DNA from: Chlorella sorokiniana
Lineage: Eukaryota > Chlorophyta > Trebouxiophyceae > Chlorellales > Chlorellaceae
Assembly (NCBI GenBank): GCA_025917655.1
Contig: CP084611.1
Location: 4,154,001 to 4,218,000 of the forward strand
Reading direction: 5' to 3'
DNA length: 64,000 nt
Each line of letters opens with the position of its first letter. Position 1 is the stretch's first letter. The translations under genes and the position numbers were made by a program. The notes below the pieces were generated by a model that did no database searches, was not told the origin of the DNA, and worked only from the letters and a program-made list of their open reading frames with translations. This document shows positions 1,137 through 64,000 of this stretch, piece after piece.

Positions 1137-4100
1137 GTGCGTGTCATTTCAAAGTGCGATGTCACAGGCTCGGCCGTGGCAGCAACACTCCCAAAGACGT
1201 CTCCAGCCATCCGCCGTTTGGCAGTCGAAACCCCACCGTTTGCCTACCCTCCGATTCCCGAGCATCACTATGTGCCGCACTGCAGGTATTGGAAAATCGC
1301 CTGCCATGCCCAGCGGCCTGCCGGCAGTTCTTCTTATGGGCAGCCAGCGGCCTCAAGAGCCGACGAACCGCGCAGCGATCGGGATGCGTGGCATTTGTTG
1401 GAGCTGGCCGCCATCCACCATGCCGACACACTGGCGGTTGTGGATTGCGCGGCAGGGGGAGGGGGGCGGCAGCTGACGTACAGCCAGCTGTTTGATCGCA
1501 CCACATCGCTCGCAGCGCACCTGGCCTCCGTGGGCGTGCGTCGTGGCGACCGCATCGGCGTCCTCTCCCGCAACGCTTCTTATGTCATCGAGCTGCACTT
1601 TGCAGCGGCAGCCCTGCATGCCGTGGTGGTCAACATGAACATCCACCTGGCCCCCGTGAGCTGGCCTTCATCGCAGCCGACTCCGCGCCCAAGGTTGTGT
1701 TTGCAGACACGCATGTCGCCGACTCGCTGCTGGCGGCGCATGCCGAGCTTTGCAGCCAGGCCGCCGAGTCACAACAGGGCAGGGGAGCCTCTCCGGTGTT
1801 TGGCAGCGTGGTGTGGATGCAGGTGGAGGGCAGCAGCCATCTTCCTGCTGCGCAACCAGGAATGCAGGTGGGAGTTCCGGCCGATTGCTGCAGGCTGATC
1901 TGGTCTGTCTGCAACAAAAACAGACAGCAGCGGCAGCACCAGCATGTCATGATGCTGAACAGGGCCTCCTGTGCGCTTCATGTACTTTCGGGTCCCCCTT
2001 GCCTTTCTGCAGGCACGCGAATATGAAGCTTGCTTGGCGGCTGCCGCGAGCAGCGCCGAGGCACGCGGCCAGCTGACGGCGGCGTGCAGCCTGGTGCTGG
2101 CTGAGGGCAGCGTCGAGGACGGTTTCCACCTGTACTACACCAGCGGTACAACGGGCGTGCCCAAAGGCGTGATGCTGAGCCACCGCACTGTGGTGCTCCA
2201 CGCTGTGGGCACCATCTCAGGTGGGCTGCTGCTCCAGCCGATGTGTATGTGGCTGTGGAGCAGGTCAGCGCTGGCAGTGCTGGCATGCGTCCATTTTGAT
2301 AGAACCTTTCTTAAGCAAGGGGAGACTCTTTGTGTGCCTAGTATCTCCTTGCGCAACGACGCTTGCCATACACGCACATGCATGCGCTGGTGCTGTGCGG
2401 CGGGGGCTGATGAGCCACGCCGCCCCGGCCGCCCCGTTCCAGAGATGAACCTCAGCCGCCACGACGTGTGGGGCCACTTTGCCCCATGTTCCACCTCGTG
2501 GACGTGTTTGCCGTGTATGCCGTCACCCTGGTGGGCGGCCGCCACGTCACCCTCCCCGCCTTCAGCCCCCAGGAGGTGCTGCTGGCCATCGGTGAGCGAG
2601 CGACGCCGTCTGTGCGTGTGCACCCGCTTGTCACCCTGCACGTGCTGTGCAATGCTCCCACGATGCACGCCGCTGCTCTGCTTGGTTTGCGAGGAGCCCT
2701 GGCTGCTGGCCTGCCGCCCAGCGCACCCCCTGCGCCCTCCTGTCCTCCTGCTTCCACCCGTGCAGAGCGCGAGCGTGTCAGCGCCACGAATGTTGCCTCC
2801 ACTATGGTGGCCATGCTGGTCAACAACCCGTTGGTGGAGCAGCTTGACCTCACCAGCCTGCGCGTGCTCAGCTGCGGCGGCAGCCCGCAGAGTCCCGCGG
2901 GTGAGTTATGAAGCAGCAGCGGCAGCGGTGCGGAGTGGTTGTGTCAAGCCGTGTCAACCATCCTGCCATGCAGCTACATCCCCGCTTGTCGTGTCTTTCG
3001 CTGGAGCTTTTCGTGTGCGGATTGGCCGCTTGACGTCGCCTGACCCCTGTTGCCCCTTTTGGTGCCTGGCCTCTGCAGTTGTGGTGCGCGCAATTGCCGT
3101 GTTTGGATGCGAGTTCTTCCTCTCGTACGGCATGACAGAGTGCTGCGGCAAGATTTCCATGAGCATCCTGCCTCCTGGCGATGCTCGTCGCACCATGACC
3201 GGTGGGTCCTGCATCATGGTTACTCAGCTTTGCTGGACAGCCTGCTGTTATCAGGCATGCTGCAAGCTCCTGAGCTTAACTTGCACCATGTGTGCCTGCG
3301 TGCAGTGGAGGAACAGCTGGCCTTAGTCACCAGCAGCGGGCGCCCTTTCCAGCTGATTGATGTCAGGATTGTGGCCGAGGATGGTGCAGACGTGGCAAAG
3401 GATGGCGTGCAGGTAATGCCTGTGATGTCCTTTGGGGGCGTTGCTGGGATGAACAGTCCGTGTGCGATGTGTTGAACGCTTTTATGCTGTGGCCCTTGCA
3501 GGTTGGAGAGGTGTGGGTGCGTGGGCCAACCGTGTTCGCCGGCTACTGGGGCCTGCCAGCGGCTACTGCCGAGAGCTTTGCAGAAGGCGACTGGTTCAAG
3601 TGAGAGCAAATCTCACTTAATTTGAGCTAGAGTATGCATGCTCAAGCTAGAGCACGCATGGTGCTGTATGGTCAGCAATGGCACGCTTGACTGTTGGTTA
3701 ATGCTCTGCCCAGGACCGGGGACCTGGCAACCGCGGATTCCAGTGGGTACATCCACGTTGTGGACCGCAAGAAAGACATGCTGTTGGTTGGCGGCGAGAA
3801 TGTGTACAGTGAGCGCTTCCCTCTTGCCCTCGTGTTCCCTTATGAGTTGTTCTTGGGAGCGCCAAGCTGTTGCACTGCTCCACTGCCTGCCTCACAGCGC
3901 GTTGTTGCTGTGCCGAGTCTGGCCGCCCTGCCTGTGTGCCACCTGGTCCTGCACTGCAGCCACCGAGGTGGAGGCTGTGCTGTACAGCCACCCTGCGGTG
4001 CACCAGGCCGCGGTGTTTGGCTTGCCCAGCCGGGTCATGGGAGAGCTCGTGGGCGCGGCGGTCACCCTGCGCCCGACGCAGCCGCGCAGGCAAGCAGTGT

Positions 4101-7100
4101 GGTGGTGCACACAGTCGCACACGTGGCGGTGCACGGTGTGGCTCCTTATCTGGTCTGGCACTAAGTGCAGTTTGCTCCTGGTGCTGTACAGGCCATCACC
4201 CCGCGTGACCTCATCAGCTGGTGCGCTGGCCGCCTGGCCCACTACAAGGTGCCCGCTGCGCTGCACATACTCCCCAAGATGCCCACCACCGGCTCTGGCA
4301 AGATCCTGAAGACGGAGCTGCGGCGCATGTATGGCGCCAGTGCCGGGCATGCAGCAGCGAGTCCTGCTGCCCCCGTCACCTTGGCTGAAGCGGCGGCCGT
4401 GGTCGCTGCAATTGGAGGAGGGAACCTGGCCTGCCAGCCGCTGGAGGCTGGGCTGGGCTCTGAGTGGGGCCGTGACCTCCTCCCGAAGCTGGCATACCTG
4501 TTGGTGGTGGAGCATGCGGCCGACATCCGCCAGCAGGTAAGCCTTGCATCCGCCACGGATGTCAACCGAGTCGCACGTCGCATCTGATGCGTGGCTGTGC
4601 ACTTCTTGCCCTGCCTGAGCCGCGCACCTTGGTGGCTTTGCCGTGCAGGTAAAGGCTGCTGTGGCCATGGGAGTGCGTAATCTAGGAATCATCGCTTTGG
4701 AGCAGCCTGCACTGCATCAACTGGAAGGTCTGGCAGCTCTGGGCGACACAGTGAGCGTGGCGCACGTCGATCGTGCAGCTTGCGCTGCGTCCATCGCGAT
4801 CGAAAGCGGTGGGGCCAGCCCACTGCGATGCGCCGTGGCGGCGATGCGTGAGCTGATGCCGCCGTTGGGTAGCGTGCTTCACGCGCCCCTACCGGCTGAA
4901 GCTGCCGCCGCTGCAGCAGAGGCAGTAAAACAAGCTCAAGCAGCGGCGGTGCCAGCTGCTCGTACTTCTGTTCAACCATACCAGCAGCCAACACTTGCCA
5001 CAAATGCAGCCAAGCCAGCAGTGGATGCAAATGCCGTGCGGCAGGCAGTCATCGCAGCTGTTGGCGCGCTGCTGGGCGACCCTGCTGCATCCAGCATCGG
5101 CGAGGACGAGCCGCTGATGTCGGCAGGCCTCACTTCCACCCTGGCTGTACAGCTGACGCAGCAGCTGGAGGAGAGCCTTTCTCTGGCCCTGCCGGGCACC
5201 CTGGTGTTCGATTACCCCTCGATCAACGAGATGGTTGGCTTCCTGGCAGCTGAGCTGGCCAGCAAGTCCAGCAGCGCAGCTCAAAAGCCAACCAGCACGG
5301 CCGCGCCTGAACCTGCTAGCAGGGTGACGCCGCTACCACAGAGGGCCGCCACAACCGCACCTCGACCCGCCCCGGCAGCCCGCCAGCAGCAGCTGGAAGC
5401 CGGCGGAGCCGCTCTGGTCTTGCAGCACGTGGCACAGCTGCTGGGCAGTGATGCAGCCGGCACTTCTGCTGACGCGCCCCTCATGTCTGCCGGCCTGACC
5501 TCCACGCTGGCGGTGCAGCTGACACAGCTGCTGGAGCAGGCAGTCGGCGCCGAGCTGCCAGGCACGCTTGTGTTCGACTACCCATCGGCCGCGGAGATCG
5601 GCGCTTTCCTCGCCGCCCAAGGCCTGCTTTCCACAAGCTCCCTGACTGCAGCGGCAGCTCCACCTCAGGCCGCTGCACCGGCAAGTGTTGAGGCAGGGCC
5701 GCGGCAGCGGCAGCAGGTCGCTGCGCAGGTGCTTCGCGAGGCTGCCAGCCTGCTGGGCAGCGACGTAGTCATCCGCGCTGATGAGCCGCTCATGTCAGCA
5801 GGCCTGACCAGCACCCTGGCTGTGCAGCTGGTCGGGGCTCTCGAGGCAGCTGTTGGTGCCGAACTGCCGGGCACCCTGATTTTCGACTATCCAACTGGTA
5901 CGTCAAAGTGGTGGTTTATCAAGCTGTTGGCGAATGTGCGCAGCTACCAACCACGAGTACTCACTCCCCTTGTTGCAGCGTCCGACATTGCCGACTATTT
6001 TATCTCTGAAGGCCTGGTTCCCGCCGCGCTGGCCAGCCTTGCAGCACCTGCTGCACTGGCTCCCGCTGCGCTAGCAGTTGCGCAGGTGTGCATCCATGGC
6101 GCACACATGGTTGAGCTAACAGACGCAGCGGCCCTGCTTCCTGCGGAGAAATCACCTCCTGTCATGCTGCGCACACCCTGCAGGACCCACCGGCCGCCAC
6201 ACCACTATGCGCAATTACTTCCTCGTCTCACAGCGTCCCTGGGGGCGCCTGGACTTCCAGCGCCCGTCTGGCAACGACCGCATCAGCTGCGTGCCTTTGG
6301 AGCGCTGGGACGTCGAATCTGCACCTGCTGACAACCATTCAGGCAAGCACGGGCGCGGGCAGGGCAGGCTGCGGGTGCAGGGCATGGAAGCCAGTGGAGT
6401 GACACTGCTTAAACGTGCCGCCCGCAGAGCTGAACAGCCAGTTTGGGTCGTGGCTTGCGGGCGCCGACCGGTTCGGCGCCAGCGGGATGGGGCTGTCGCC
6501 GGCGGAGGCGCTGCTCGTCGACCCTCAGCAGCGCCTGGTCATGCAGTCCTTTGCGGGTGAGCCTGGGTGGGTTTGTGCTGCGTTTGGCAGGACATCCACC
6601 ATCCAGCTGTGCCATGGTGCGGCTGCAAAACTGCTGGCATCGTGCTGTGCTGCAGAGGCGCTGGCAGGCCACCACGCACACCATGAACCGTGCCGCGCTA
6701 CGGGTGTGTATGTGGGCGTGTCCCAGCTTGAGTATGCACGGATCAGCCTGGAAACCGGGGCCAGCACCGTCAACACGTACTACGCCACCGGCGCGCACCT
6801 CAGCGTCGCTTCAGGTGGGTGTGGTCCAGCGCTACTCGGGAGAACTGTCGGGGGAATGCACCTGCATTCCGCCTGGTGCAAGGGGTGCTTGCCCCAGGGG
6901 TGCTCACCCTGTCTGGTTCCTTGCGTCCGCCTTCTGCAGGCCGCCTGTCCTACACATTCGGCTTCAAGGGGCCGGCAATGACGGTGGACACCGCCTGCTC
7001 GTCCTCCCTGGTCACCACCCACCTGGCCGCCAAGGTGATGCACACACGCCCCGCTGCGTTGCTGCCGACAGCATCTGCCTGCAGCGTCACTTGTCTGCGA

Positions 7101-10100
7101 TGCTGGCGTGGCTGCGCCCGCCTGCGCCTCGTGCACTCCGTGCTCAAGCAAGCTGTGCTGTGCGGCAGGCACTGGAGGCCGGGAGTGTGAGCTGGCGGGC
7201 AGCGTGGGCATCAACCTGACGCTGGTGCACAGCTGGACGCGCGCGTGCCTCCGCGCCGGGATGCTCTCCGAGGAGGGCCGCTGCAGGACGCTGGATGCAG
7301 ACGCAGACGGCTACGTGCGGGCCGAGGGCGTGGGCGCAGCCATGCTTGCCCGCTTCCCCCGCCGACCAGCAGGAGTGCAAGGGCGGTCCGGGTGCCGCCC
7401 TTGCATGGCAGTCGCTCGTCCTGCTGGTGGGCAGCGCAGTGAACCAGGACGGGCGCAGCAGCAGCCTCACCGCCCCCAACGGGCCCAGCCAGCAAGAGGC
7501 CATGCAGGCAGCGCTGCGGTCTGGCGATCGTTCAGCATTTGAGGTTGCTCACCTGCAGATGCATGGGACAGGTGGGGGCGGTTGCATCCATCGAGGGCGC
7601 TTTGCTGTGGCAACGTGGACCCGGGCGCCAGCTTACACATCCTGGTTCCTCTGGAACAGCCTCCACCATTGTCTTGCTGTGCAGGCACTTCTTTGGGCGA
7701 CCCAATCGAGGTGGGCGCCGCAGTGGCCGTGCTCCTGAAGCCTGGCGTCGCACGTGAGGCCGCGCTGCAGCTGACGGCGGCCAAGTCGTTCATGGGCCAC
7801 GCCGAGCCTGCTGCTGGCATCGTGGGCATCGCCAAGCTGTCGCTCATCCTGGGGCACCAGCTGGCCGATCCCATCCTGCACCTGCGTACTGTCAACCACT
7901 ACGTGGCGAGTGCTGGTGAGCGCAGCAGCGCAGGTGTGGCGTGTGGCGTGTGGCGTGTGGCTGCGCAGTTGCCTGCTCATGGTCATGCTGCTTTACACTG
8001 CGTCCGTCCATGTCTCGCTGACTGGGCCATGCTTGTCATGCCACCCTCGCTTGCAGTGAGTGGCGCTGCCAGCCATGGTACCAACCACCGCATCTCGGCC
8101 CCTCGCCAGCTCAGTACCAGCGTGGCGACTCGGGCCGAGCTGCTGGGAGGCGTCAGCTCTTTTGCTTTCCAGGGCACCAATGCACACGCTATTCTCGGCA
8201 AGCTGACTGACCGCACCTTTGCTCTGCCTGGGCCGTCGCCCGCATTTGTGAGCGCAGCGGCCAGCCAGCAGGCACGGTTCTGGGTGCTTCCGGCAGCTCA
8301 CTCTCTGGTGGGCTGCGTGAGCAGCGGTGGCGCTGGCGGCCAGCGTGTGATGCTGTTTGAGTGCAGTCTGCTGGCGGCTCGGCAGGCGATGTATTCAGAC
8401 CACCAGGTGTTTGGCAGGGTGCTGTTTCCAGGAGCGGGCATGATGGAAGCCGCTCTGGCAGCTGCCAGCACGGCCCTGGATGGCCCCGGCAGCAGGGCAG
8501 CACTGGCGGTGGCTGGCATGGCCATCATCAGCCCCCTGATCATCCCGCCGCCGGAGCAGCAGCCGGCGCCTGGCGTGCGTATGCACTGCAGCCTTGTGCC
8601 AGCCACCGGCGACATTCAGCTGGCTGAGCAGCGGGGCAGGGGCGCCTCCACACCTTGTGCACACGGCGGCGTCATGTGTGCGGCGGCAGCGACAGCCGCT
8701 GTGCGTGCTGCAGCCGCCATGGTTGCATACGCACAGGCGAGGCGCTTGCTGCCGCTCGGCAGGGAGGCAGCGGCCACCGCCCTGGCTGGAGGCAAGCCAC
8801 AAGGGAAAGCCACAGGCAGCATTGCGGTGGACAGGAAGCTTGGTGCCGACGGCTACCTGGTTCCACCCCCGTGTATGGACGCCTGCCTGCACCTGGGAGT
8901 GGCGGTGCCAGGCTGCGGCGCCAAAGTGCCCATCGCGGTGGGCGCTTTCGTGTTAGCTGACAGCTGTGCAGCGGCGGGCACTGAGCTGGCGGGCAGCACG
9001 TCGGCGGCATACCGCCTGCCCTCTGGCGGTTCTGAAGTGTCCAGCTTTGCCCTGCACACCTCTCTTGGCGGCGCTTTCGCCAGCCTGGCAGACCTTGAAA
9101 CCAAGGTGACCAAGCCCAAAAGCACGGCTCCAACGTCAGTCCAGCCAGCAGACTTCCTGTATGAAGTTGATTGGCAGGCAGCGGGGCTGGCCGACAGCGA
9201 GCAGCAGCCGCGACCGTCTGCTGCAGTGGAGCTAGGCGGGAGCTCGCTTTCCCTAGACTTTGCAGCTGGCCCCAGACAGGCAGCCACGGGAGCGCTTGCA
9301 GTCATTCAGCACGCCCAGACGGCGCAGGCGCCGGCTGTTGGTGCGTGGCTGCCGGAAACGCTGCCCCGCGGGCTGGCAGCTGGCTTCACATCTGCGGCAG
9401 TGCTGGCGGCTGGAGCTGTGGAGGGGCTGCTGCGAGTTGCTGCCACAGAGCATGCTGCAGCCCAGTACCGGTTGGCGGTGACGGATGCTCAGGCGGCATC
9501 GCCCTGCCTGGCTCCTCCAGCCAGCAGCCGGACATGGGGATCTTGAACTGTACCCGGGTGCACGGAACTGTGTCCTCAATCCCGCATCTGCTTCCCAGGT
9601 GATGGCGTGGATCCTGCATCTTGATGTGCTGCTTCTTGCCAGTGAGATGTTGGAGCACCCTGCAACTCCAAAACACTGTCTTGCTCAGTGCTCTGTGCGC
9701 CCGTTGCCATTCCTTGTCATGCAGCTGTGCGGTTGTGCCTGCCGCGGAGCTGCTGCAAATCCGGCCGCTGCCGAGAGGATCCCTTGCCAGCCTGACGCCC
9801 CAGCCAGTAGATGCTGCCTCAGCTGTCGCCAAGCTGCAGCCTCACGAGGTGCTGGTTGCGGTGAAGGCTGTGGGCATCAACTTCCGGGACGTGCTCAACG
9901 TGCTGGGCATGTATCCGGGGATCCGGGGCCGCCGGGCAGCGATTGCGCGGGATCGTCATCCATGCTGGGGGCGCATCTGGCTTCAAGCCAGGTGAGCGCT
10001 GCCGGTGCTGCTGTTGGATGCCGCTGCCTCTTCATCATCTGCCTGCGCCAGTCCTACTGCAATACGATTGGCGTCATTCCAAGCATGCTGCTGCTCCCAA

Positions 10101-13100
10101 ACTGCAGGCGACTGCGTGTTTGGTCTTGCCCATGGCTGCCTGGGTACGGCGGTGGCCAGCCCGGCGGCCATGCTGGCCCCGCTGCCCGGCACGCTGAGCT
10201 TCCAGGAGGCCGCCACCACGCCAACCGTCTTCATCACAGGCAAGCGCCATGCTGCGACTTGCTGGCTAGATCTTCTGTCTTGCATTGAGTGGGCCCTGGA
10301 CAATCGCGGACACGGATGCCCGCCATGTGTGCAGTGGAGATGGCCCTGGATAAGGTGTCCGCCCTTGCGCCCAGCGACCGCGTGCTCGTGCACGCTGCTG
10401 CCGGCGGCGTGGGTTTGGCCGCCATCCAAGTCGCCCAGGTATCTGTGCGCTGCCCTGCACGGCACCCTCCTGCGACCGCTCAGGTCCCACCCTCCTTTGG
10501 CAAGGTGCTGACTCTCGCTCCTTGCTCATCACGCGCAGGCAAAGGGTGCTGCTGTGGTTGCCACTGCTGGCGGGGCGGCTAAGCGGACCCTTGTGCATGC
10601 TCTGGGGGTGCCGTCGGTGCTGGGTTCCCGTGACACCCTGTTTGTGTCTGAAGCGGCTCAGCTCGGAGGCGTCACCGCTGTGCTCAACAGCCTCACCAGC
10701 AGCGGCATGGTGGCCGGCTCGCTGGCAGCGCTCAGCGCCGGTGGCCGCTTTGTGGAGATCAGCAAGCGCGACATCTGGAGCCCGGCGCGCGTGGCACAAG
10801 GTAAGAAGAAATCCAAAGAGGGTGCTTGTCGACGGGGACGTGCCCCATCAACTGGCTGCACAATCAGCCTGCTGGCCTGCTAAAGGAGCAACTCACGCAT
10901 ATTGTGCTGTGCAGAGCGTGCCGATGTGCTGTACTCGCTCGTCGCCGTGGACTTCCTGCCTCCCGCGGTCGTCGGCACCACGCTGCGCAAGGTTGCGCGC
11001 CAGCTGTGCGCGGGCGTGCTGCGGCCCCTGCGCAGCATCACACACGGCCTCGGCGTGGTGCCCTCCGCCTTCCGCCAGATGGTGCAGGCAAGTGGCCGGC
11101 GCGGCACGGCTGCTTGTCTATGCTGTTTGTGGGCATACGCAACCCCAACGCTTGCCTTCATGTGACCCGCATTCCGTTGCAGGCCACGCACGTAGGAAAG
11201 GTTGTGGTTTCTGGGAGGCGCCGCTGGCTGCTAGCCCTCGCAGCATCCCATCTGTGGCCATCACCGGCGGTTCCGGAGGGCTGGGCCTCATGATCAGCAG
11301 CTGGCTGGTGCAGCGCACCGGCAAGATGTACGTCCTCCTGTTGAGCCGCTCCGGCAGGACAGCCGACCCCGCAGCCGCCAGTCTCACTGCCACACCGGCC
11401 TGCATCAGCTCGGCCATGGCGGATGCCGGCAGCTCGGTGGATGTTGCTGCCGCCTTGGCTGCTGCCGCCTTCTCGCCGCGCCCCGCCCTGCAGATGGTGC
11501 TGCACGCGAGCGGGGTGCTGGCAGATTCGCTTCTCGACAAGCAGAGTGCTGCCTCTTTCAGGTGTGCCTACATGTCAGCAGCTCGTGGGGGCTGCCTGTT
11601 GCCATTGGGTTCAGTGGCTTGGCCCTGCATCATCAGTGTGACCATGTCTTGTGAGCAGGCGAGTATTTGCACCAAAGCTGGGTGCCCTGGAGGTCGTGTC
11701 TACAACCCTCCAACGCCAGCCAGTTGCAACGCTTGCCCTGTTCTCCTCGGTGGCGTCGCTGCTGGGCGCTGCTGGCCAGGTGAGTGCCACGTCAGCACCG
11801 ACCCAAGCTCCCTGCAGTGCCCTCGAGGCCCTCAGGGCTTCCCAAGCACTTGTTCGTCCCATACAGGCCAACTACGCGGCAGCCAACGCGGCGATGGATG
11901 CATGGTCGCACAGCTGGCAGGCCGCTGGCGGCGCCTCCAAGGCCATCCAGTGGGGAGCTTGGTCCTCCTCGGGTGCGCTGTTTGCTGGTCAGCGGCATGT
12001 GCTTCCGCATGCCAGGCATCCGATTGACATCGACTGGCTTCTGCCTCGTGCAGGCATGGCCTCAGCTGCAGTGCTGAAGCGCTTGGACAGGATTGGGCAG
12101 GGCAGCATCACTGCTGACCAGGGGCTGCTGTCCCTGCTGGTCATCCTGCGGGCGCAGCTGCGACAGCCTCCAGCCCCGCACTGCCCCAGCTGGCTGTCAA
12201 CGCCTTCCTCTGGAACGTCTACCTGAGAACCAGCCAGCCAGCCTTCTTTGCAGAGATGGTGCCAAAGCAGGCGGCCGCGCAGCTTGCGCTGGGCAAGAGG
12301 GCGGGCGCTGCATCACGCTCCTCGCGCGCTGCCAAGCCGGCAACCGCGGCAGACCCAGCTTCCGTGCAGGGACAGGTCAAGGGCGAGGTGGCGGCGGCCA
12401 TCATGCAGGTGAGTCCTGTTGTGTGCGCGTACCAGGGGGCGGATGCTGTTTGGCTCACCTCGTATGCTTCACAAGCGCGCTTGGCGAGCCGATGTTCCGG
12501 CAAGCTCAGCCCTGATTTCATCCCGCATGCATGCCGACCCTGGCTCTGCCTGTGCAGGTCCTGGGCGCCTCGATCGGCGACGACGAGCCGCTCATGTCTG
12601 CCGGCCTGGACTCGCTGGGCTCGGTGGAGTTTGCAAACGTGCTGAGTCAGAAGCTGGGCCTGCAAGTGCCCTCCACCCTCGTGTTTGACCACCCCACCGT
12701 CACCGCCGTCACCGCCTACCTCGCCGCCCAGATGCTCAAGTCGGCGGCCGCTGCGGCGGCGGCGGCCCCGAGGCGCAGGAGGGTGACGCGGCCGACGCGT
12801 CGCCGGCGGTGTCTCAGGATGCTGAGCTGGCGTACTTTGGCGGGCCAGCGCGGCTGGACCAGCTGTCAGCCGAGGTGCCGCGCAGTCAGCGCCACCTGGC
12901 AGTCAGCGCCGTCGCAACACGCAGCCTCATGGCCGAGACATTTGCGGCTCCCGAACAGGTAAAAGGCCATATCAGCCCTCGCATCCTTCGGCGCAAGCAG
13001 TGGGCAGTATGCCTGTGACACCTCTCACCGTGCGCTGTTCATCCCACTGCAGGCCAGCCTCTCAGTGGACTGCATCCACCGACTGCCGCTCGACCGCTGG

Positions 13101-49100: not shown

Positions 49101-52100
49101 CAGCTGCGGCTGCAGCTGCTGCTGCTGTGGATAGGGGGAGATGCTCTACGAGGTCGCCTGGGCAGCAGCAGAAGGAGGCATTGCTGCGCCTCAGCAGCGG
49201 ACTGGTGCCGTGTGCCTGGCAGCATCAGCAGACAGTCATGCACATCTGGCAGCGTCCAGCATTGCAGTGGTGCAGGGTACGCTGGCAGCTGGTGCCACTC
49301 GCCTCCACCTTGTGACTCAAAGCCAGCATGCCTTGCCAGCTCAGCCTGCAGGTAATGCAGGCACCTCCTTGGCTGGTCAGCTCTGGGGCATGATGCGCAC
49401 TGCCGCTGCTGAATGCCAGAGCCTCGAAGTTTCTGGGGCAGATTCAGACGCGCTGGCAGTCCAGCCTGCCGGCAGCCACGCAGCGGCGGTGCTAATGGCT
49501 GGCAGCCAGATGGATGAGCGCGCAGCTTCGCCATTTGATGGATATGGCACATCTGTGGCAGGCGGCTCCGTGTACCTGCCCCTCATGCATCCCAGCGCAG
49601 CCACGAGCAGCCCCGCGCCCTTCCAGCTGTTCCCCCAGCCGCGCGGGCGCTGCAGAACCTGGCGCCGCTGCCCGTGGATGCCAGCGCCGCAGCCCTGGCC
49701 CCCGGCCAGGTGCTGGTGGCTGTGCGGGCGGTGGGCATCAACTTCCGGGACGTGCTCAACGTGCTGGGCATGTACCCGGGGATCCGGGGCCGCCGGGAGG
49801 GGACTGCGCGGGCGTTGTGGTTGCAGCAGGCCCTGGATCCAGCCTGTCAGTCGGCCAACCGGTGTTTGGTCTGGCAGCCGGCAGCCTGGGCAGCCACGTC
49901 GTTGCGTCAGCAAAAACGGTGGTGCCGCTGCCAGGCCTGCTCAGCTTCGAGGCGGCTGCCAGCATGCCCACCGTGTTTGTCACAGTGGATGCCGCTCTGC
50001 ACCGCTGTGCAGCCATGAGGCCTTGGGACCGCGTGCTGGTGCATGCGGCGGCAGGAGGCGTGGGCCTGGCGGCCATGCAGGTTGTGGAGGCGGCAGGCGC
50101 GGTGCCGCTTGCCACTGCTGGCAGCAGCAACAAGCGGGCGCTGCTGCGCTCCCTCGGCGTGAAACAGCTGGCCAGCTCACGCGACACAACGTTCGTTGAC
50201 CACTTCTGCCAGCTGGAAGGGCAGGAGCCCAGCGTGGTGCTCAACAGCCTGACGAGCAGCGGCATGGTGGCGGGGTCGTTGGCGGCGCTCAGCGCTGGCG
50301 GGCGCTTTGTGGAGATTAGCAAGCGCGATATATGGAGCCCGGCGCGTGTTGCCCAAGGTGGGTGGGAAAGAAATAGTTTGGGTTTTGGTTGCCAAAAACA
50401 CAGCTACAAACTATGTGGGGGACAGGCTCCAGCCCCACGGCTTGATTGTCGGACCATGAGTTGTTGTTTGATCATGTGGTTCGATTGTGAATGTTCGATC
50501 CGATTGAACCTCAGGCTGCCCCTCCCCTTCAGCTGCCTGTCTTTTCGTCCAATCGAAGCTCGACTGATATGCAATGAACCCGATTGTGCCCTTTTCCTCG
50601 AAAATTCGATTCCATTTACCTGCACTTCAATCGGTATCTTTCAGCAGTTCTGTAACTCCCGTTTGTTCTTTGTCCTAAACCTGTAGTTGATTCTTACATG
50701 CTGCTGTCCTTCCCCTCGCTGCCTGCCCTGCAGAGCGCCCGACGTGGCCTACTCCCTGGTGGCGGTGGACTTCATGTCTGAGGCGGCCCTGCACGCCGCC
50801 CTGTCGCGCGTGGCGGCGGCGGCAGCGACCGGCAGGGTGCACCCCTGCCCCTCATCGCTCACAGCATGGGTGCCGCCACCGCGGCCCTGCGGCAGATGAG
50901 CCAGGCCCGCCACGTGGGCAAGGTGGTGGTGCGTGTGCCCGCTGGGCACCGGGAGCCGCGCGCAGCGGGCCGCGTGGTGGTCACAGGAGGCCTGGGCACC
51001 CTCGGCCAGCTCGTGGCTGGCTGGCTGCAGCAGCGCGGCGTCGTCAGCGTTGAGCTGCTGGGTCGCAGCGGCATGGCGGCCGCGGACTTCGTGTCAACCA
51101 TCGGCTCAGCCTCGGCCGTTGGAGCAGTCAGCATTCGAAAAGCAGACATCAGCCTGGCAGAGGACCTGGCGCCTGCCCTGGCTGGCGAGCGGACCAGCAG
51201 GCGGCCGCTGGAGCTGCAGGCTATCCTGCATGCCAGCGGCGTGCTGTCCGATGCCACGTTTTCCAACCAGACGCTCGCCGGCATCCGGCAGGTGCTTGCA
51301 CCCAAGGTGCTCCCGGCATCCGCTGGCGGCGCACCCTGGCCAGCAGCCCTGCCGTCTCCGAGGTGCTCTTTTCCTCTGTGGCGGCACTGCTGGGTGCCCC
51401 CGGTCAGGCCAACTACAGCACGGCCAATGCGGCCCTGGATGTCATGGCTCAGCGTGCGCAGCAGGCAGGCCTGGCCAGCACCAGCGTGCAGTGGGGCGCC
51501 TGGGCGGGCGGTGGCATGGCTTCAGCCGAGACGGCGGCGCGTGTGGAGCGCATGGGCATGGCAATGGTCACTTCGGAGGCAGGCCTGGCGGCGCTCGAGG
51601 GCCTGCTGGCACGCGTGACAGCGGCGCCCGTGGTAGGTGCCAGCCCCTTCAACTGGCCGCGGTTCCTGCAACGCCTCCAGCCCAGGCAGCGCACCCAGCT
51701 GTTTGACAGCTTTGTGTGGTCATCCGCTGCTGCGACAGCGTCGGGGGCGCTGCCAGCTCAGCCAGCCGCCAGCCCGTCCCGGCGCTGGCAGCTGGGGCTC
51801 CGCTGAGCAGGGAGTCTGTGGCTGAGCAGGTGGCTGCAGCTGTGGTGGCTGTGATGGGTGGCCCCGTGCTACCCACTGCCTCCCTCATGGAAGCCGGCCT
51901 GGACAGCCTGGGTGCTGTGGAGCTGCGCAACAGCCTGAGCAAGCAGTTTGGGCTGGAGCTGCCCGCCACCCTCACCTTTGACTACCCTACCTCGGCGGCA
52001 ATCGCAGACTTCATTGCCGGCTGCATCGTGCCCCTGGCAGCAGCTGCCGACTCCAATGCCGAGGGAACTGCAGCTGGCGGTGTGGCCCAGGCCTCACAGC

Positions 52101-55100
52101 TGGTGCCAGCGGGCGTGGCCAGGGCAGGCATCGCACTCACTGGCCTCAGCCTGCGCTTTGCGGGCGGCATGGACAGCCTGGAGGGCTTGCACCTTGCACT
52201 GGACACCATGCCTGAGCTGCAGACAGCCGGACCTGAACCCCGCTGGCAAACAGGTGCCGCTCCTGCTTGCCCACCAGAAAATCCTGCTGCTTCCTCCTCA
52301 ACCCCGGCCTGCTTCTGCCCCTTACTGCCTGCAGATTTGCACTACAGCCCATCGGGTGGCATCGGCAAGATAGCCTCTCGCTTTGCCACGTTCGTTCACT
52401 CCACTTTCCACTTTGACCACGATGCATTCGGCTTGTCAGGTGAGTGCAGCACCACCTTCGTTGAAGGGAAGACAAGCATGAAGGCGGCGTGAAACTGCAT
52501 CATGCCGCTTTCTGTGATGTGCAGTGAGCGAGGCAGCCCTGATGGACCCCCAACAACGTGTGCTGCTGGAGGAAACTGTGTCGGCCTTCCGTGCTGCCGG
52601 CCACTCTGCGGATGCCCTGTTGGGCAGCCCCACCGGCGTGTTTGTCGGCTGCATCTGGCTCGAGTATGCAGACCTGCTGACCAGCGCCGGCAGCCTGCCG
52701 GGCGCCTACATGGTTACAGGTGGGTGGGAGCGCAATGGGTGGAAGGTGCAGCTGGCTCCCTCGAAACAATAACGATGTTCATGTGTTCCACCTGCAGGCA
52801 ACGGCCTCGCCTTCATGTCCGGGCGTGTGTCGTACTCGCTGGGCCTTGTGGGCCCTTGCGTGCCCACCAACACAGCCTGCTCGTCCTCGCTGGTGGCCTG
52901 GCACCTGGCCTCTCGGGGCATTGCACTTGTGAGCAGCCGGCATGCTGCTGCCGGTTGGCCTGAGTTGCTGCTGTGGCGGAAGGCAGACAGCTAAGCCTTC
53001 CTGGTGTGCTCAGTTGCCTCTTTTCGTTGTTGTGCAGGGCGACTGCGGGATGGCCACAGCATCTGGGGTCAACTCCTTGCTGCTGCCCACAGCTGCCACA
53101 TCAGCAATGACCCAAGTACACGCGCTGTCGCCTGATGGTCGTTGCAAGGCGTTTGGCAACGAGGCAGACGGTTATGGCCGCGGGGAGGGCTACACCGCTG
53201 TGGTGCTGGAGCCTGTTGCTGGCGGCACCGCCCGGTGCCCGCTCGCCTTCTTCGGCGGCAGCGCCGTCAACCAGGACGGGCGCAGCAGCGGGCTGACTGC
53301 CCCGCATGGGCCCAGCCAGCAGGCGCTGATTGTGGCAGCCATGCGGGAGGCAGGCTCGGCAGCTCTGGAGTACGTGGCCACACATGGAACCGGTGAGGCT
53401 CTGCTGCAGGGCAACTCCTGTATGAGCCCCATGTGTGTGCCGCTGGCATTCTCTCAGCATGCTGCTCTGCTTCCCTCCTGATCAGGCACGCCACTGGGAG
53501 ATCCAATCGAAACAGGGGCCCTGCGCAAGGCGGTCGCGCAGCCATCCGCGCCCACCGCTGCTGGCTTCACAGCCGGCGCCATCAAAACTCTGACGGGCCA
53601 CCTGGAGGGCACTGCCGGCCTGGCTGGCCTCCTGCTGGCCCACGTGGCGCTGCATCGCCGCTTCGCCCATGGCATGCGCTACCGCAGCATCAACCCATAT
53701 GTGGCCAACAGCTTGGGCGGCTGGTCGGTGCCGCACCGGCTGCCTGTGCAGAGCGGCCCCAGCTTCGCAGCCAACGCCGGCACCAGCTCCTTTGGCATGA
53801 GCGGCGTGAACGCTCACGCAATCATCCTCCCGCCAGCCGATGAGCAGCCAGCAGGCCGCGGCGGCCTGGCCCTTGCCAGCTGGAGCCGCAGCCTGCGGTG
53901 CTTCATTGAGGTGCTGGTGCCCCTGCACCCCCTGCTGGGCAGCGCCTCCAAGGCTCGGCAGCAGCTGCAGTTCAAACTGGCGCTGTCCAAGGCCCCGCTG
54001 GCCTTCCTCTGGGACCACCGCGTGCAGTCAGCAGCCATCATGCCTGGCGCTGCCTACTTTGAGATGGCTGCAGCTGCTGGCCGCACCCTGCTGCGGCTGG
54101 CAGAGCCCTGCGTGGCGCTCACTGGCGCAGCCATTGCCGCGCCACTGCGGCTCCCAGCGCCAGCCGAGGCTCAGGTTGTGACGGTTGCTGCAGATGTGCG
54201 GCTGGTTGCCGGCGAGGTGAGCATCAGGTCGGCAGCAGCAGGAGATTCCAAGGGCGCGGAGACGTTGCACCTGCGTGGCAGCCTGACTGCAGCCCGCGCA
54301 GTGGTCGCTTCAGTAGAGTGCTTGCCAGCTGACGGAGCATCGGGCGTTGCATTTCTGCGGATGCGGCCCGCGCTGCCTGCCTCGAGCCCCTGGACACAGC
54401 AGCAGTCTACGAGGGCCTGCGCTTGGCCGGCTTGCAGTACGGCCCTGCCTTCCGCCGGCTGCGTGGCATTGCCCAAGGGCCCAGTGCAGCTGCTGCACGC
54501 CTGGACGGCAGGGTCGCTAACGGCAGCCACGATGCCAGTGTCTCTGGCTTCCTCATGCATCCCACGCTGCTGGACAGCTGCCTGCAGCTGGGCGCCCTTG
54601 TGCCCGAGGAGGCGGCGCCAGGCGGCAGCCCATCCACGGACGGCGGCGGCGCCTTCGTGCCTGCCGGCCTGGCCGTGTACCTCATCCAGCAGCCGCTGCA
54701 GGAGGGCAGCTGCCCGGTGACTGTCGTGCGCCGCAGCCCCCAGGCAGCTCGCAGGGCGGCGGGTGCCACCTACCGAGACCACGTGCTGGTGTCGGAGACA
54801 GGCGCCGTGCTGTCTGTGCTGGACGGCTTGAGGCAAAGCAGCTGCAGGGCAGCGGCGGTGCCAGAGCAGGGACGGCAGCTGCCAAGCAGCTGCCACAGGC
54901 GGAGCTCCTGTATGAGGTGTCATGGCAGGCAGCAGTCCAGGCCGCCACAGCCCAATCGGTGCTGGATGGCGCAGCCGGCATGACCACGCTTGGCTTGCGC
55001 GACGGCGGCAGTGACCCTGTCCGCGGTGCCAGCAGCAGCCTTGCAGTGCTGCAGGCGGCGCTGGAGCAGCAGTCGGCGGCACTCCAGCTGAGCACAGTCA

Positions 55101-58100
55101 GCTCCGTGGTGGCTGGAGCCAGCTCAGCCAGTGCCATGAACGTGGGCGGCAATGCCCTCTGGGGCATGCTGCGCGCTTTTGCTCAGGAAGCTCCTGCTGT
55201 CAGCCATGGCGGAAGCCGTTGGGATCCGCAGGCCACTGTTGCTCGTGGAAGGGGTGTGGACAGCAGCCTTGTTCTTGCAGCCAGTGCCAGTGCTAAGGTT
55301 GCTGATGGTTATGGCAGCCAACTGCTTGCGGGCACAGCACTGCATGCCGTGCTCCTGCCTAGCGGCTCCGTGCAGCCTGCCCTGGCCCCATACCACTTGA
55401 TGCCAAGACCTCGCGGCGCTTTCAGGTGAAGAGGCAGGCGGGATGTCGGGCTCTGCCTCTTGCGTGCGCCAATGACTGTATAGTTCAGAGCTGTTCTGAC
55501 TGCCCTCCTGCCTGTCCCTCTTGCCCCAGAAATCTGGCTGCTGAACCTGTTGCCATTGGCACGGCTCAGCCTGGCTGGGTGGAGGTTGAGGTGAAGGCAG
55601 TGGGCATCAACTTCCGGGACGTGCTCAACGTTCTGGGCATGTACCCGGGGATCCGGGGCCGCCGGGAGGGGACTGCGCGGGCATTGTGACCCGCGTCCCG
55701 GCTGGCAGCACCACCGCCCTGAAGCCTGGCGATGCGGTGTTTGGGCTGGCAGCTGGCAGTCTTGGCAGCCACGTCATTGCATCCGCCAAAACTGTGGTGC
55801 CCATGCCTTCTTTCATCAGGCAAGCTGCCGGCGTGCACCTGCCTGCAGCTGTGGAGTGCTGCCTTCTTGCCTCACTGCCGCCCCACAAGCTGCTCACGAG
55901 GCTTGCCTCCTCGCTATCTGTGCAGCTTTGAGGAGGCCTCAAGCATGCCCACCGTCTTCATCACTGTCGACACAGCCATAAACCAGCTGGCGGCTGCCAC
56001 TCGGCAGACCGCGTGCTGGTGCATGCGGCGGCAGGGGGCGTGGGCCTGGCAGCCATGCAGGTCATCAATGCTTCAAACGCCATGCCGCTCACCACAGCGG
56101 GCAGCAGCAACAAGCGGGCGCTGCTGCGCCTGCTGGGCTGTGCCAACGTGAGCAGCTCACGAGACACCGCTTTTGTGTCGGAGCTGGCAGAAGTTGGGGG
56201 CGCCAGCGTGGTGCTCAACAGCCTCACCAGCAGCGGCATGGTGGCCGGCTCGCTGGCGGCGCTCAGCGCTGGCGGGCGCTTTGTGGAGATCAGCAAGCGC
56301 GACATCTGGAGCCCGGCGCGCGTGGCCCAAGGTGGGTGGGAGCGGAAGGGGTGAAGGCAGCAGAAGAGTAAAGGTTGGGCGAGGGAGTGATGCAGAAGGC
56401 TCGCCAGAAGATTTATGGGGTGGCTCAGCCGATTTTCTTGACTGTTTTCGGAAAGTGCTCGGTCCAAAATTCGATTGCAAGGCCTTCAAAATGTCCAAAC
56501 AAGGACACGAGAACTGAAGGGTTGAAATTCGATCTTTCAATCCGAGCGAATCTCAATTGTGCAATTTAGGTCGAACGGATTCAAGCCTCCCTCCCGTTTC
56601 GATCGGTCCCAGTTATCGGTCTCAATCGGATTTGCTTCGAGAACCCGTCTCTGCCTTTCATTGTTTGTCCCTCTTTCCTGCTCTCTGTGGTTCTGAAGCC
56701 TCCATGCTGATCTCGTTCCCACTGCAGAGCGCCCCGACGTGGCCTACTCCCTGGTGGCGGTGGACTTCATGTCGGAGGCGGCCCTGCACGCCGCCCTGTC
56801 TCGCGTGGCTGCCGGGGTGGCGGCTGGCAGCCTGCGCCCCCTCCCACAGGTCGCACACAACTTGGCGGACGCGCAGGCAGCCCTGCGCCAGATGGGCCAG
56901 GCGCGCCACGTGGGCAAGGTGGTGGTGCGGTCGCCGTCCATGTCGGCCCAGAATGGAGGGAGGAAGGGATCAGGTGGGTGGCCAGCTTGACCGCACCACC
57001 GCCTGCCATCTCTCAGGTGCATGCCACCTCCCTGCACCCACCTTGTCACGTTTGCCTCTTGCAGTCGTCATCAGCGGCGGGCTGGGCACACTAGGCACCC
57101 AAGTGGCCGCCTGGCTTGCGCAGCACCAGGTGCGCCACCTGCACCTGCTGGGCCGCAGCGGCCGCTCGGCGCCCGAAGGCCTTCAGCTGGAGGACCCCAG
57201 CGCTGCAGCGTTTGCCGCCGCCGTCACGATGGTGTTGTGCGATGCGGGCTGCTCGGAGGACGCTATGGGGCAGGCAGCAACGGCGGGCGGCGGGCAGCCG
57301 GTGCTGGGCGTGATGCATGCGGGTGGCGTGCTGGCCGACGGCGTGCTCAGCTCCCAGTCGGCTGCCACGCTGCGCGCTGTGTACGCTCCAAAGGTCGACG
57401 CCAGCACGCAGCTGGACAAGGCATTGGGCAGGCAGCCTGGTGCCTTCAAGCTGCTCTTCTCCTCCGTGGCAGCCCTGCTGGGCTCCCCCGGCCAGGCCAA
57501 CTACAGCGCGGCAAATGCGGCCCTGGATGCCATGGCTCAGCGTGCACAGCAGGCAGGCGCCATCGCGACCAGCGTGCAGTGGGGCGCCTGGGCAGGTGCC
57601 GGCATGGCAGCAGGCGATGCCTCCACGGCGGCGCGTGTGGAGCGCACCGGCATGGCCCTGCTGCTGCCTCAGCAGGGCATGGCAGTGATGCAGGGCATGT
57701 TGGAGCCTCGGCAGCACGCCAGCTCAGCACCGCCGCTGCTGGCAGCGAACGCCTTTGCTTGGGACAAGTTCATGCGCCGCTTTGGCAGCGCCGCCGCCGC
57801 GCCGCCGTTCTTTGCAGAGTTTGCTGGAAGCTCTGCGCCTGATGGTGCAGCCCCGGCAGCCACCTCAAGCGGCCTGGCAGCCGCTCGCAAGGGCCGCGCC
57901 GCCCCGGACCAGGCCTGTCAGCGGCGGACCGAAAGGCGGCTGTGCTGGGGCAGGTGCAGGAGGCTGTGGGGAGCATCCTGGGCGCCGATGTCGGCCAGGA
58001 CGAGTCCCTCATGGCGGCTGGCCTGGACAGCCTGGGTGCTGTGGAGCTCAAGAACAGCTTGAGGGCCGCCTGGGCCTGCAGCTGCCCGGCACCCTTGTGT

Positions 58101-61100
58101 TTGACTACCCCACCGTGTCAGCCCTGGCCGGCTTCATCGAGAGCCAGCTGCCGGCTGAGGAGGAGGGGCAGGAGGGAGCTGGCACGGCAGCCGACGATCA
58201 GCTGGTGCCGCTCAGCCCGCTGGCTGGACAGCCGCTGGACTCTGCGCTGCCGGCCGGCGGCGCGGTTGGGCTGGTTGGCCTGTCCAGCCGCACCGCACAG
58301 GTGGGGCCTAGCACCTGTGGTTCGGCTTGCTTGATCACGGGTGCCCCTTGTCAGTGTGGGTTTGATTGCTCTGCCCACCACGGCGCACGGCAGAAGCCAC
58401 ACACGTCCTGCCTTGTCCCGCCAATGACGCAGAACGCGGTTCTTTCTTTGGTGGCCCTGGACGCCATCTCCCCTGTGCCCTTGGAGCGCTGGGACGTGGA
58501 TGCCCTGTCGCTGGGCGCCGGGGTGCTGCCGCCCGCTTTGGCGGCTTCTTGGAAGGGGCGGATGCGTTTGACGCGGGGCCTTTGGGCTGAGCGGCGGCGA
58601 GGCCGAGCTGATGGACGCGCAGCAGCGCCTGCTGCTGGAGGCGGCGCTGGAGGCGACGTGCCACGCTGGCGCCCGGCTGGCACGGCCCGCCAGCGTGGCG
58701 GTGGCGGTGGGCATCGCCTCGGCCGAGTACAACAACTACATCGTGCCGCGCTTCTCAACCGGCGTCAGCGCCTACTCTGCCACCGGCGGCGCGCTGAGCG
58801 TGGCCAGCGGCCGCCTCAGCTACACGTTTGGCTTCAGGGGGCCGGCCGTCAGCGTGGACACTGCCTGCTCGTCTTCCCTGGTGGCCGCCCATCTGGCGGC
58901 AGGCAACGTCTTTGCCGGCGTGTGCTCCGGCGGCCTGACGGCAGGCGCCGGCCTGCTGCTGTCGCCAGACACCACTGCCATGTTCCACAAGGCCGGCATG
59001 CTGGCGGCAGACGGGCGCTGCAAGACGCTGGACGCCGCCGCCGACGGCTACGTGCGTGGCGAGGCGGTCGGCGCGGTACTCATGCAGGCCTTGCAGGGGC
59101 TGCTGACCGGGTCGCTGGCCGTGTTTGTCGGCAGCGCGGTGAACCAGGACGGGCGCAGCAGCAGCCTGACCGCCCCCAACGGCCCCAGCCAGCAGGAGGT
59201 GGCGCGCCAGGTTCTGGCGGCTGCCAGGCTGGCGGCCGCTGACGTGGCCCAGGTGCAGATGCACGGCACCGGCACCCCGCTGGGCGACCCCATCGAGGCG
59301 GGGGCGGCGGCGGCAGTGCTGGTGGATGGCGCCCGGCGGGCGCTGCCCCTCTCAGCCTTCACCTCCAAGGCCTGGCTGGGCCACACCGAGGCGGCGGCGG
59401 GCGTCATGGGCCTGACCCACTCCACTGCCGCGCTCGCACCGCCTCGCCCACGGTGGGTGCTCCTGGCTCGGCTGCCTTGCCTCCTCTGCTGTTGCGTCCG
59501 CCTCAGGGAGTCTCAAGTGTGCGGCGCCCTGCAACCTGCCGAACCAGTCTGAAAGCTTTCCGACCGCCTCCTCTCCTCCCCCAGGCATTCTGCACTTGAC
59601 CGCCCTCAACAGCCACGTCAGCGCCATCCTGGAGATGTCGGCGGCCAAGTCGGCGGCGCCAGGCTGGCACCTGCCCCGCATGGCAACCCCTGCCGCAAGC
59701 GGCGACGGCTGGACCGTGTGCGGCATCAGCTCCTTTGCCTTCCAGGGCACCAATGCCCACGCCCTGCTGCGCCAGGCTGACGTCCTCGCAGCCACAGGGC
59801 CAGCTGTGGAGCTCGCCACCCTCAGCAGACACCGCGTGTGGCTGGCGCCGCCCGTGCACGCCATGCTGCAGGCTGCGGCGGCCGCCGGCAGCGCCAGGTT
59901 TGCCCGCAAGAGGGCCTCTGCTGAGGTGGCGCTGGAGGCGGCCCTTTCGACACCGTGCTTGGCCTTCTTGTGGCAGCACACCGTGCTGGGAATGGCTGTC
60001 TTCCCTGCAACCGCGTTCCTGGAGATGGCGGCGGGAGCCACGCGGCAGCTGATCAACAGCAACGACCTGTCTGGCTCTTCACTGCGCTCGGCAGTGTTTG
60101 CCACCCCCTGACCCTCCCAGCCGCGCCAGCAGCGGCGGTGCGTGTGCGCTGCACGGTGCAGGCCGCCGCGGGCGCATTCGAGGTCAGCTCGGCAGCGGCA
60201 GCGGGTGCGGGGCAGCGCTCACACTTCTATGCCAGCCTGACCACAGCCCCGGCCAACACCTCCGCAACCGCTGGTCAGCCTCGTGCGGCCGTGCCGGCCA
60301 GCCATCTCGCGCTGTTGCCAGCCCAGAAGGGCCCGCTGGTTGCCCGGCTGGCAGTTGCCGAGGCGATTGTGCCGCCAGAGGAGCTGGGCATGAGCGTACA
60401 CCCAGCTGTGTCGGAGGCAGCCATGCACGTGGCTGTGGCCCACCAGTCGCAGCCCAAGCAGCTGCGCGTTGCCTCCAAGATGGCGGCAGTGGCCGTGCAG
60501 CTTGTGCTGAGCGAGCGGAGCGTGTGGGCCAGCAGCCTGGTTGCGGGGGCTGGGGCAGGCGTGAGGGCGGCGCCAGGGGGCGGCGGCCTGCAGGAGCAGC
60601 AGCTGTTGGGTGTCGGCGGGCTGGCGATGCGGGTGTCTGGCATGGAGACGCGCCGCCTGGTGTCCCAGGTGGGGGAGGTGCCATTCTTTGGTCTCTTGGT
60701 TAAGTTGTGAAACGACAATTTCCATGGCGGATTGACGCCTCTCATCTTCTTGTGCTTCTTGCACCTCCTCCCCGCAGCGGCCAGCCATGATGACCCCTCG
60801 CATGGCGGCCTCCCCTCACGCCGCCGAGGACGCTCCGCTCAGCCCCTTCAACCTGCAGACCCCCACACCCCGCTCTACCTGCTATCCCCCTCGGCCGACG
60901 CGGCTGCCTACGCCCTGGGCGGCGGCGGCGGCGGCCTGCCCAGCTGCCACTCCAGCGTGGAGGTGCTGGCCAGCCGCGGCGCCACGGGCGCGGGCCTGTC
61001 CCCCGAAGCCCTGCAGTCTCTGGTGGCGGAGCAGGTGGCGGCGGTGCTGGGCGGCGCGGTGGGGCCCGACGACCCGCTCATGGCGGCGGGGCTGGACAGC

Positions 61101-64000: not shown

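Follow-up and report, generated by a model that had tools for sequence, protein, structure and literature searches.

According to passages of PMC4661987, AT-less multimodular polyketide synthases (PKSs) predominate in the chlorophytes, with 11 KS domains in Chlamydomonas and Volvox and 10 and 9 in two genes of Chlorella variabilis; module duplication is also described there and, for Chlamydomonas and Volvox, HANGT is given as the motif of the terminal KS. Passages in PMC7073580 deal with a megasynthase conserved among chlorophytes, which has an A domain at its N-terminus, 10–11 modules, a TE, and no AT; its last two modules are non-reducing, and a hydroxy-pyrone is suggested for Chlamydomonas. 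PKS1 homologues are reported in Auxenochlorella in part of PMC12633428. For C. vulgaris, sections of PMC6972661 describe one large gene that has 11 KS, 9 KR, 9 DH, and 6 ER domains and no AT, and point to a separate malonyl-CoA:ACP transacylase that could make up for the lack. That modular trans-AT PKSs are established in chlorophytes, as the first-pass annotation of the sequence considered here had stated, is supported by these parts of PMC4661987 and PMC7073580.

The window, a stretch of 64,000 nt, corresponds to positions 4154001-4218000 of contig C1 in a Chlorella sorokiniana genome of 38.8 Mb in 15 contigs. To this were added 20 kb on the left and 40 kb on the right, a spliced gene model was built by script, and domains were located by Pfam scans of window pieces, by genome-wide family searches, and with profiles made from the gene's own repeated domains. 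The modelled gene, on the plus strand, opens at 1306 and has its stop codon at 69,348, about 5.35 kb to the right of the window, which makes it about 68 kb long. It is very probably a chlorophyte PKS1-type trans-AT modular type I PKS, because all 11 of its KS modules retain the Cys-His-His residues and no AT was detected. Landmarks of the PKS1 type are present, these being an N-terminal ligase, non-reducing last two modules, an altered terminal KS motif, and a C-terminal thioesterase. The whole gene contains a ligase, 11 KS modules, 9 KR, 6 ER, 19 carriers, and a thioesterase-like end, with DH domains numbering 9 by catalytic His and 10 by profile. In window coordinates, the features are:

1137..4536, plus strand: loading acyl-AMP ligase, AMP-binding and C-terminal domains (PF00501, PF13193, open frame)
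5012..5905, plus strand: three tandem loading carriers, motif GLTST (PF00550, own profile)
6065..12722, plus strand: module 1, KS-DH-ER-KR-ACP (Pfam, own profiles, motifs)
12908..17673, plus strand: module 2, KS-DH-KR-ACP-ACP (Pfam, own profiles, motifs)
17782..22867, plus strand: module 3, KS-DH-KR-ACP-ACP (Pfam, own profiles, motifs)
22994..29402, plus strand: module 4, KS-DH-ER-KR-ACP, with a DH frame break adjoining a G run
29538..36244, plus strand: module 5, KS-DH-ER-KR-ACP-ACP-ACP, with a DH frame break adjoining a G run
36398..40495, plus strand: module 6, KS-(vestigial DH, by eye)-KR-ACP
40607..46180, plus strand: module 7, KS-DH-ER-KR-ACP (Pfam, own profiles, motifs)
46292..52273, plus strand: module 8, KS-DH-ER-KR-ACP-ACP (Pfam, own profiles, motifs)
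52358..58138, plus strand: module 9, KS-DH-ER-KR-ACP (Pfam, own profiles, motifs)
58265..61208, plus strand: module 10, KS-DH-like-ACP, without KR and without ER
61364..64000, plus strand: module 11, the part in the window, KS (HSNGT) and DH-like
64,130-64,635 and on to the stop at 69,348, plus strand: module 11, the part beyond the window, carrier followed by TE-like stretches

The first-pass annotation had read a single trans-AT type I PKS gene larger than the window, with at least 11 modules on one strand, ten of them complete and an eleventh in part. The gene model agrees with this, as there are eleven KS clusters on the plus strand and the carrier of module 11 lies past the right edge, as does the stop codon. 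Extension to the right, suggested there as a way to find the release domain, did uncover thioesterase-like stretches; the "unfinished length" that had been named as perhaps undescribed is resolved, since the gene is completed within the added sequence. The proposed beginning at 1137 holds only in that the ligase open frame opens there, directly after a stop codon at 1134–1136; read by eye, this frame has no ATG from 1137 up to 1420. Position 1137 thus marks where an open frame begins and is no established gene start, and the start in the model is 1306.

When frame breaks are permitted at a penalty of 11, the model comprises 112 exons separated by 111 introns and a protein of 17,643 letters, although exon counts vary with the settings. 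Two other gene finders were set aside. One, self-trained, spread over the flanks and reached 705 exons; the other drew on paralogues and allowed no frame breaks, 25% of its introns were no longer than 71 nt, and the frame-break model took its place. The coding-model score in the window is 3110 for the plus strand and 136 for the minus strand, against 9–69 for the four flank strands, a strand control that is partly circular in that the coding model was trained on the same gene, and in which the flanks are shorter (20 and 14.6 kb). A scan for tailoring genes of 20 long open frames in the flanks, a subset with 10 on the left and 10 on the right, revealed no biosynthetic cluster; one kinase-like match and one 5'-3' exonuclease match were seen.

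The loading ligase and the three loading carriers of the first reading are both backed by Pfam matches, the ligase to AMP-binding PF00501 (E 4.1e-53) and PF13193 (E 5.2e-15), and the carriers as three PP-binding stretches (PF00550, E 7.2e-31) in the exon 4919–6085. The closest solved structures to the ligase are feruloyl- and fatty-acyl-CoA synthetases. PF00109 gave 53 exon matches to KS genome-wide, 25 of which are in the window and form 11 clusters, and the gene's own profile likewise finds 11, two of them split over two rows. The KS Cys was present in 11 of 11, and a three-frame pattern search located both the Lys..Gly-His motif and the first His in 11 of 11, with KS11 reading HSNGT (at 62,536) in place of HGTGT. 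The KR counts are lower bounds, the PF08659 search having scored 36 of 46 candidates; at least 13 of at least 38 genome matches are in the window, in 9 clusters that correspond to modules 1–9, and among the candidates scored there is no match after window position 57,594. Modules 1, 4, 5, 7, 8, and 9 have ER profile matches and the same six (6 of 11) have the NADPH-type motif AAGGVG, with no ER match by the gene's own profile after 56,825. Modules 10 and 11 are therefore without KR and ER, while DH-like remnants persist.

DH profile matches occur in 10 of the 11 modules and the catalytic His, judged by eye, is kept in 9 (modules 1–5 and 7–10). Module 6 has no DH profile match and no catalytic His, only a vestigial stretch recognized by eye; in module 10 the His is kept with Glu at the usual Asp position, and in the DH-like domain of module 11 Tyr replaces the catalytic His. 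The 19 carriers found with the gene's own profile, 18 of which are in the window, are arranged as three loading carriers and then 1, 2, 2, 1, 3, 1, 1, 2, 1, 1, and 1 per module. The ER pieces of modules 4 and 5 (26741-27179 and 33420-33858) are 86% identical and their KS 47%, which is either a local duplication or gene conversion inside the gene.

After the last carrier comes a TE-like stretch with HSYGG and GDHFS, which matches PF00975 at E 2.9e-15 when it is read with X at a frame break; the frame-broken reading matched no Pfam family. Behind this canonical-looking TE are two extra TE-like stretches (L011:2954-5350). The second stretch scores E 0.0048, under the Pfam cut-off, and is without the nucleophile Ser (GVGHGA), and the third, more terminal, has GCSVAG and matches PF00975 at E 3e-9. 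These are either three domains or a broken duplicate. Two PPTase-like matches in the genome could prime the carriers. One of them, C1:4084918-4085106 (PF01648, E 1.4e-8), is about 70 kb upstream of the PKS, possibly by chance.

No AT was found in the window by TIGR00128 at E values up to 10, by a short motif query, or by PF00698, and none was seen in the window pieces scanned with Pfam. In the whole genome, TIGR00128 at the same threshold has 10 exon matches, five on contig C3, five on contig C5, and 0 in the window. The AT search works exon by exon and can miss genes, and the 0 matches from the genome search with PF00698 at E 0.001 are a false negative in which both AT genes, split by introns, were missed. 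An AT domain needs about 900 nt (about 300 residues), and wherever a DH match exists, in ten modules, less than 450 nt separates the KS end from the DH start, so that there is no room for an AT between the two. The stretch from KS to KR in module 6 is 1269 nt, and a Pfam scan of its main exon matched KAsynt_C_assoc alone. The first-pass annotation, which saw no AT anywhere, is upheld to this extent, with none detected in the window and little room in the KS–DH gaps; the profile searches, in which an AT between KS and DH was to count against it, gave none in the window, and the Pfam scan gave none in most of the module 6 stretch.

Two other PKS loci were identified in the genome with the gene's own profile. 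One, on contig C8 at ~507–543 kb, has 8 KS, and the other, on the minus strand of contig C2 at ~34–72 kb, has about 6 KS once broken matches are joined by eye. The sequences C8:520081-530403 and 530401-540725 are a tandem duplication of 10,326 nt with 99.88% identity, covering two KS, explained either by very recent duplication of modules or by duplication in the assembly. DNA repeats of up to 89% identity are present at ~78–85 kb of C2.

The genome search for a free-standing AT that had been suggested from the sequence (TIGR00128 at E up to 10 and the short motif query) revealed two genes, on C3 and C5, which are candidate partners of the PKS. The C3 gene looks like a malonyl transacylase of the plastid type (PF00698, E 5.3e-23), its best solved relatives being bacterial FabD (E 2.9e-56) and mitochondrial MCAT (E 1.5e-55) about equally. 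In the C5 gene, ankyrin repeats (PF00023, E 1.4e-15) are joined to an AT (PF00698, E 1.3e-28), and at most joins between its pieces GT or AG is seen on one side or both:

L040 (C5:1234001-1239500), about C5:1235669-1238895, minus strand: ankyrin-AT gene (PF00023 and PF00698)

The C5 AT is 47% identical (141/297) to the C3 enzyme and has the motifs GLSLG and GAFH. Its best solved relative is 2c2n_A (E 3.1e-80), then 8csp_8, which is named as a mitochondrial malonyl transacylase, with the next chain at E 1.1e-50; 2c2n and 8csp are presumably human and the next chains presumably bacterial. Judged by these matches, the C5 AT is a eukaryotic-type enzyme, for which housekeeping in the mitochondrion is a live alternative to a part in polyketide synthesis.

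Ankyrin-fused trans-ATs have been described in dinoflagellates, in passages of PMC7159223, PMC6361889, and PMC4445524, and as in the C5 gene their ankyrin repeats precede a free-standing AT that has GLSLG and GAFH. They differ in belonging to another phylum, and the C5 AT is here one gene whose nearest PDB chain is mitochondrial MCAT. Two C. vulgaris transacylases, one of them 'cytoplasmic', are reported in PMC6972661, the main text of which is without the word ankyrin, and among the literature matches listed there was no title on an ankyrin-fused AT in green algae. On its domain make-up, the ankyrin-AT is a candidate trans-AT for the PKS. It is tentatively suggested, and is somewhat doubtful, that green-algal AT-less megasynthases may be served by a dedicated AT with an ankyrin docking arm, the C5 gene serving all three PKS loci. 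The ankyrin-AT is the less-known part of the system and worth follow-up, since, if it is the missing trans-AT, the question of AT supply narrows to two genes, the plastid-type AT and the ankyrin-AT, and one solution would be common to two distant algal groups.

From these features we infer the order of the chemistry, the product, and the serving AT. The N-terminal ligase would activate a carboxylic-acid starter and load one of the three tandem carriers, a free-standing AT would charge the carrier of every module with malonate, and each of the eleven KS would extend the chain by two carbons. By domain content, full reduction is predicted in modules 1, 4, 5, 7, 8, and 9, double bonds in modules 2 and 3, a hydroxyl in module 6, and two ketones in modules 10 and 11, before the chain would be released by the C-terminal thioesterase region. 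The product is plausibly a hydroxy-pyrone, which passages of PMC7073580 propose for Chlamydomonas, or else a long hydroxyalkyl acid.

The authors of the C. vulgaris genome propose a FAS-like role, as 'PKS/FAS type I', with cytosolic acetyl-CoA synthase up in high light (in sections of PMC6972661), and mostly saturated chains would be possible from the six fully reducing modules. A type I FAS-like enzyme for cytosolic fatty acids is nonetheless unlikely here, as eleven distinct modules that differ in their reductive sets, a starter ligase, and a terminal pair of modules without reduction fit an assembly line and not an iterative FAS. Where a type I FAS has a single iterative module with an integrated AT, this gene has eleven modules and no AT.

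At 7 of the 11 carrier-to-KS junctions, the carrier and the KS share one uninterrupted open frame, in keeping with the earlier observation that module junctions are mostly in open frame. The sequence TGTAA, which we take to be the chlorophyte poly(A)-like signal, is found only 5 times on the gene's plus strand, where base composition predicts ~16 (12 for the reverse complement), and one TGTAA is ~0.1 kb downstream of the terminal stop. These junctions and the gene model point to one gene and one polypeptide, and the TGTAA counts also argue against several adjacent genes for separate docking proteins, as in many bacterial assembly lines. The four junctions outside one open frame (1>2, 3>4, 9>10, and 10>11) would allow several transcripts, and multiple polypeptides are considered possible for C. 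variabilis in a passage of PMC4661987, yet division of this locus among several genes is distinctly unlikely.

The number of frame breaks in the gene model of the PKS varies with the penalty, at 64, 47, or 29. At the middle penalty, 15 of the 47 are near a G4 or C4 run, compared to a background of 9%, and 32 are not. In the window and the fetched sequence, G and C runs pile up at length 5 and collapse at 6–7, a pattern absent from A and T runs. Both free-standing AT genes are broken in a like manner inside GLSLGEY, and because they share this trait many of the breaks in the PKS look like homopolymer assembly errors. Stops are printed inside 3 of the 25 window KS matches and 0 of 57 HSP70 matches; those in the KS matches could come from introns read through, and HSP70 is undecisive as a control for frame breaks because its exon-wise output cannot display them. 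The simplest reading is homopolymer assembly error together with imperfect intron modelling, and not decay. That this is a decaying pseudogene in which the breaks are real mutations is very improbable, for although there are 47 breaks at the middle penalty, some adjoining the catalytic motif of the module 4 and module 5 DH, and stops within KS matches that HSP70 lacks, the breaks are enriched by G and C runs even with most of them elsewhere, the run lengths are themselves abnormal, one of the AT genes with the GLSLGEY break is plastid-type and expected to be essential, and the catalytic residues are kept in every KS. The suggested homopolymer compression means that frame-based annotation of this assembly needs care.

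The chlorophyte PKS1-type gene described here is already known in kind, and is probably g276 of C. vulgaris 211/11P or the gene of a close relative. In the sections of PMC6972661 that describe it, g276 matches on counts, with 11 KS, 9 KR, 6 ER, and no AT, and has 9 DH compared to 9 here with the catalytic His and 10 by profile, in a genome of 40 Mb against 38.8 Mb here. This identity is drawn partly from domain counts, and the 55 kbp of g276 against ~68 kb here, and the single large PKS gene stated for C. vulgaris against three PKS loci here, count against it. With the g276 counts published in PMC6972661, the earlier suggestion that the module order, carrier multiplicity, and length may not yet have been described for the species probably does not hold, although details of the carrier multiplicity and module order could be new in print.

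C. variabilis CvaPKS1, as presented in passages of PMC4661987, is similar in having the ligase first, no AT, and ~40 domains in 12 modules, and differs in its 10 KS and 1.2 MDa, compared to 11 KS and ~17,600 modelled residues. Likened by its landmarks, CrePKS1 of Chlamydomonas reinhardtii (in parts of PMC4661987 and PMC7073580) shares 11 KS, an N-terminal A or ligase domain, the lack of an AT, a TE, and last two modules without reduction, its terminal KS reading HANGT where HSNGT is found here; PKS1 is reported to function in the zygote wall. The gene confirms the published chlorophyte pattern at full length, with the release end included, and corrects the cut-off view given by the window.
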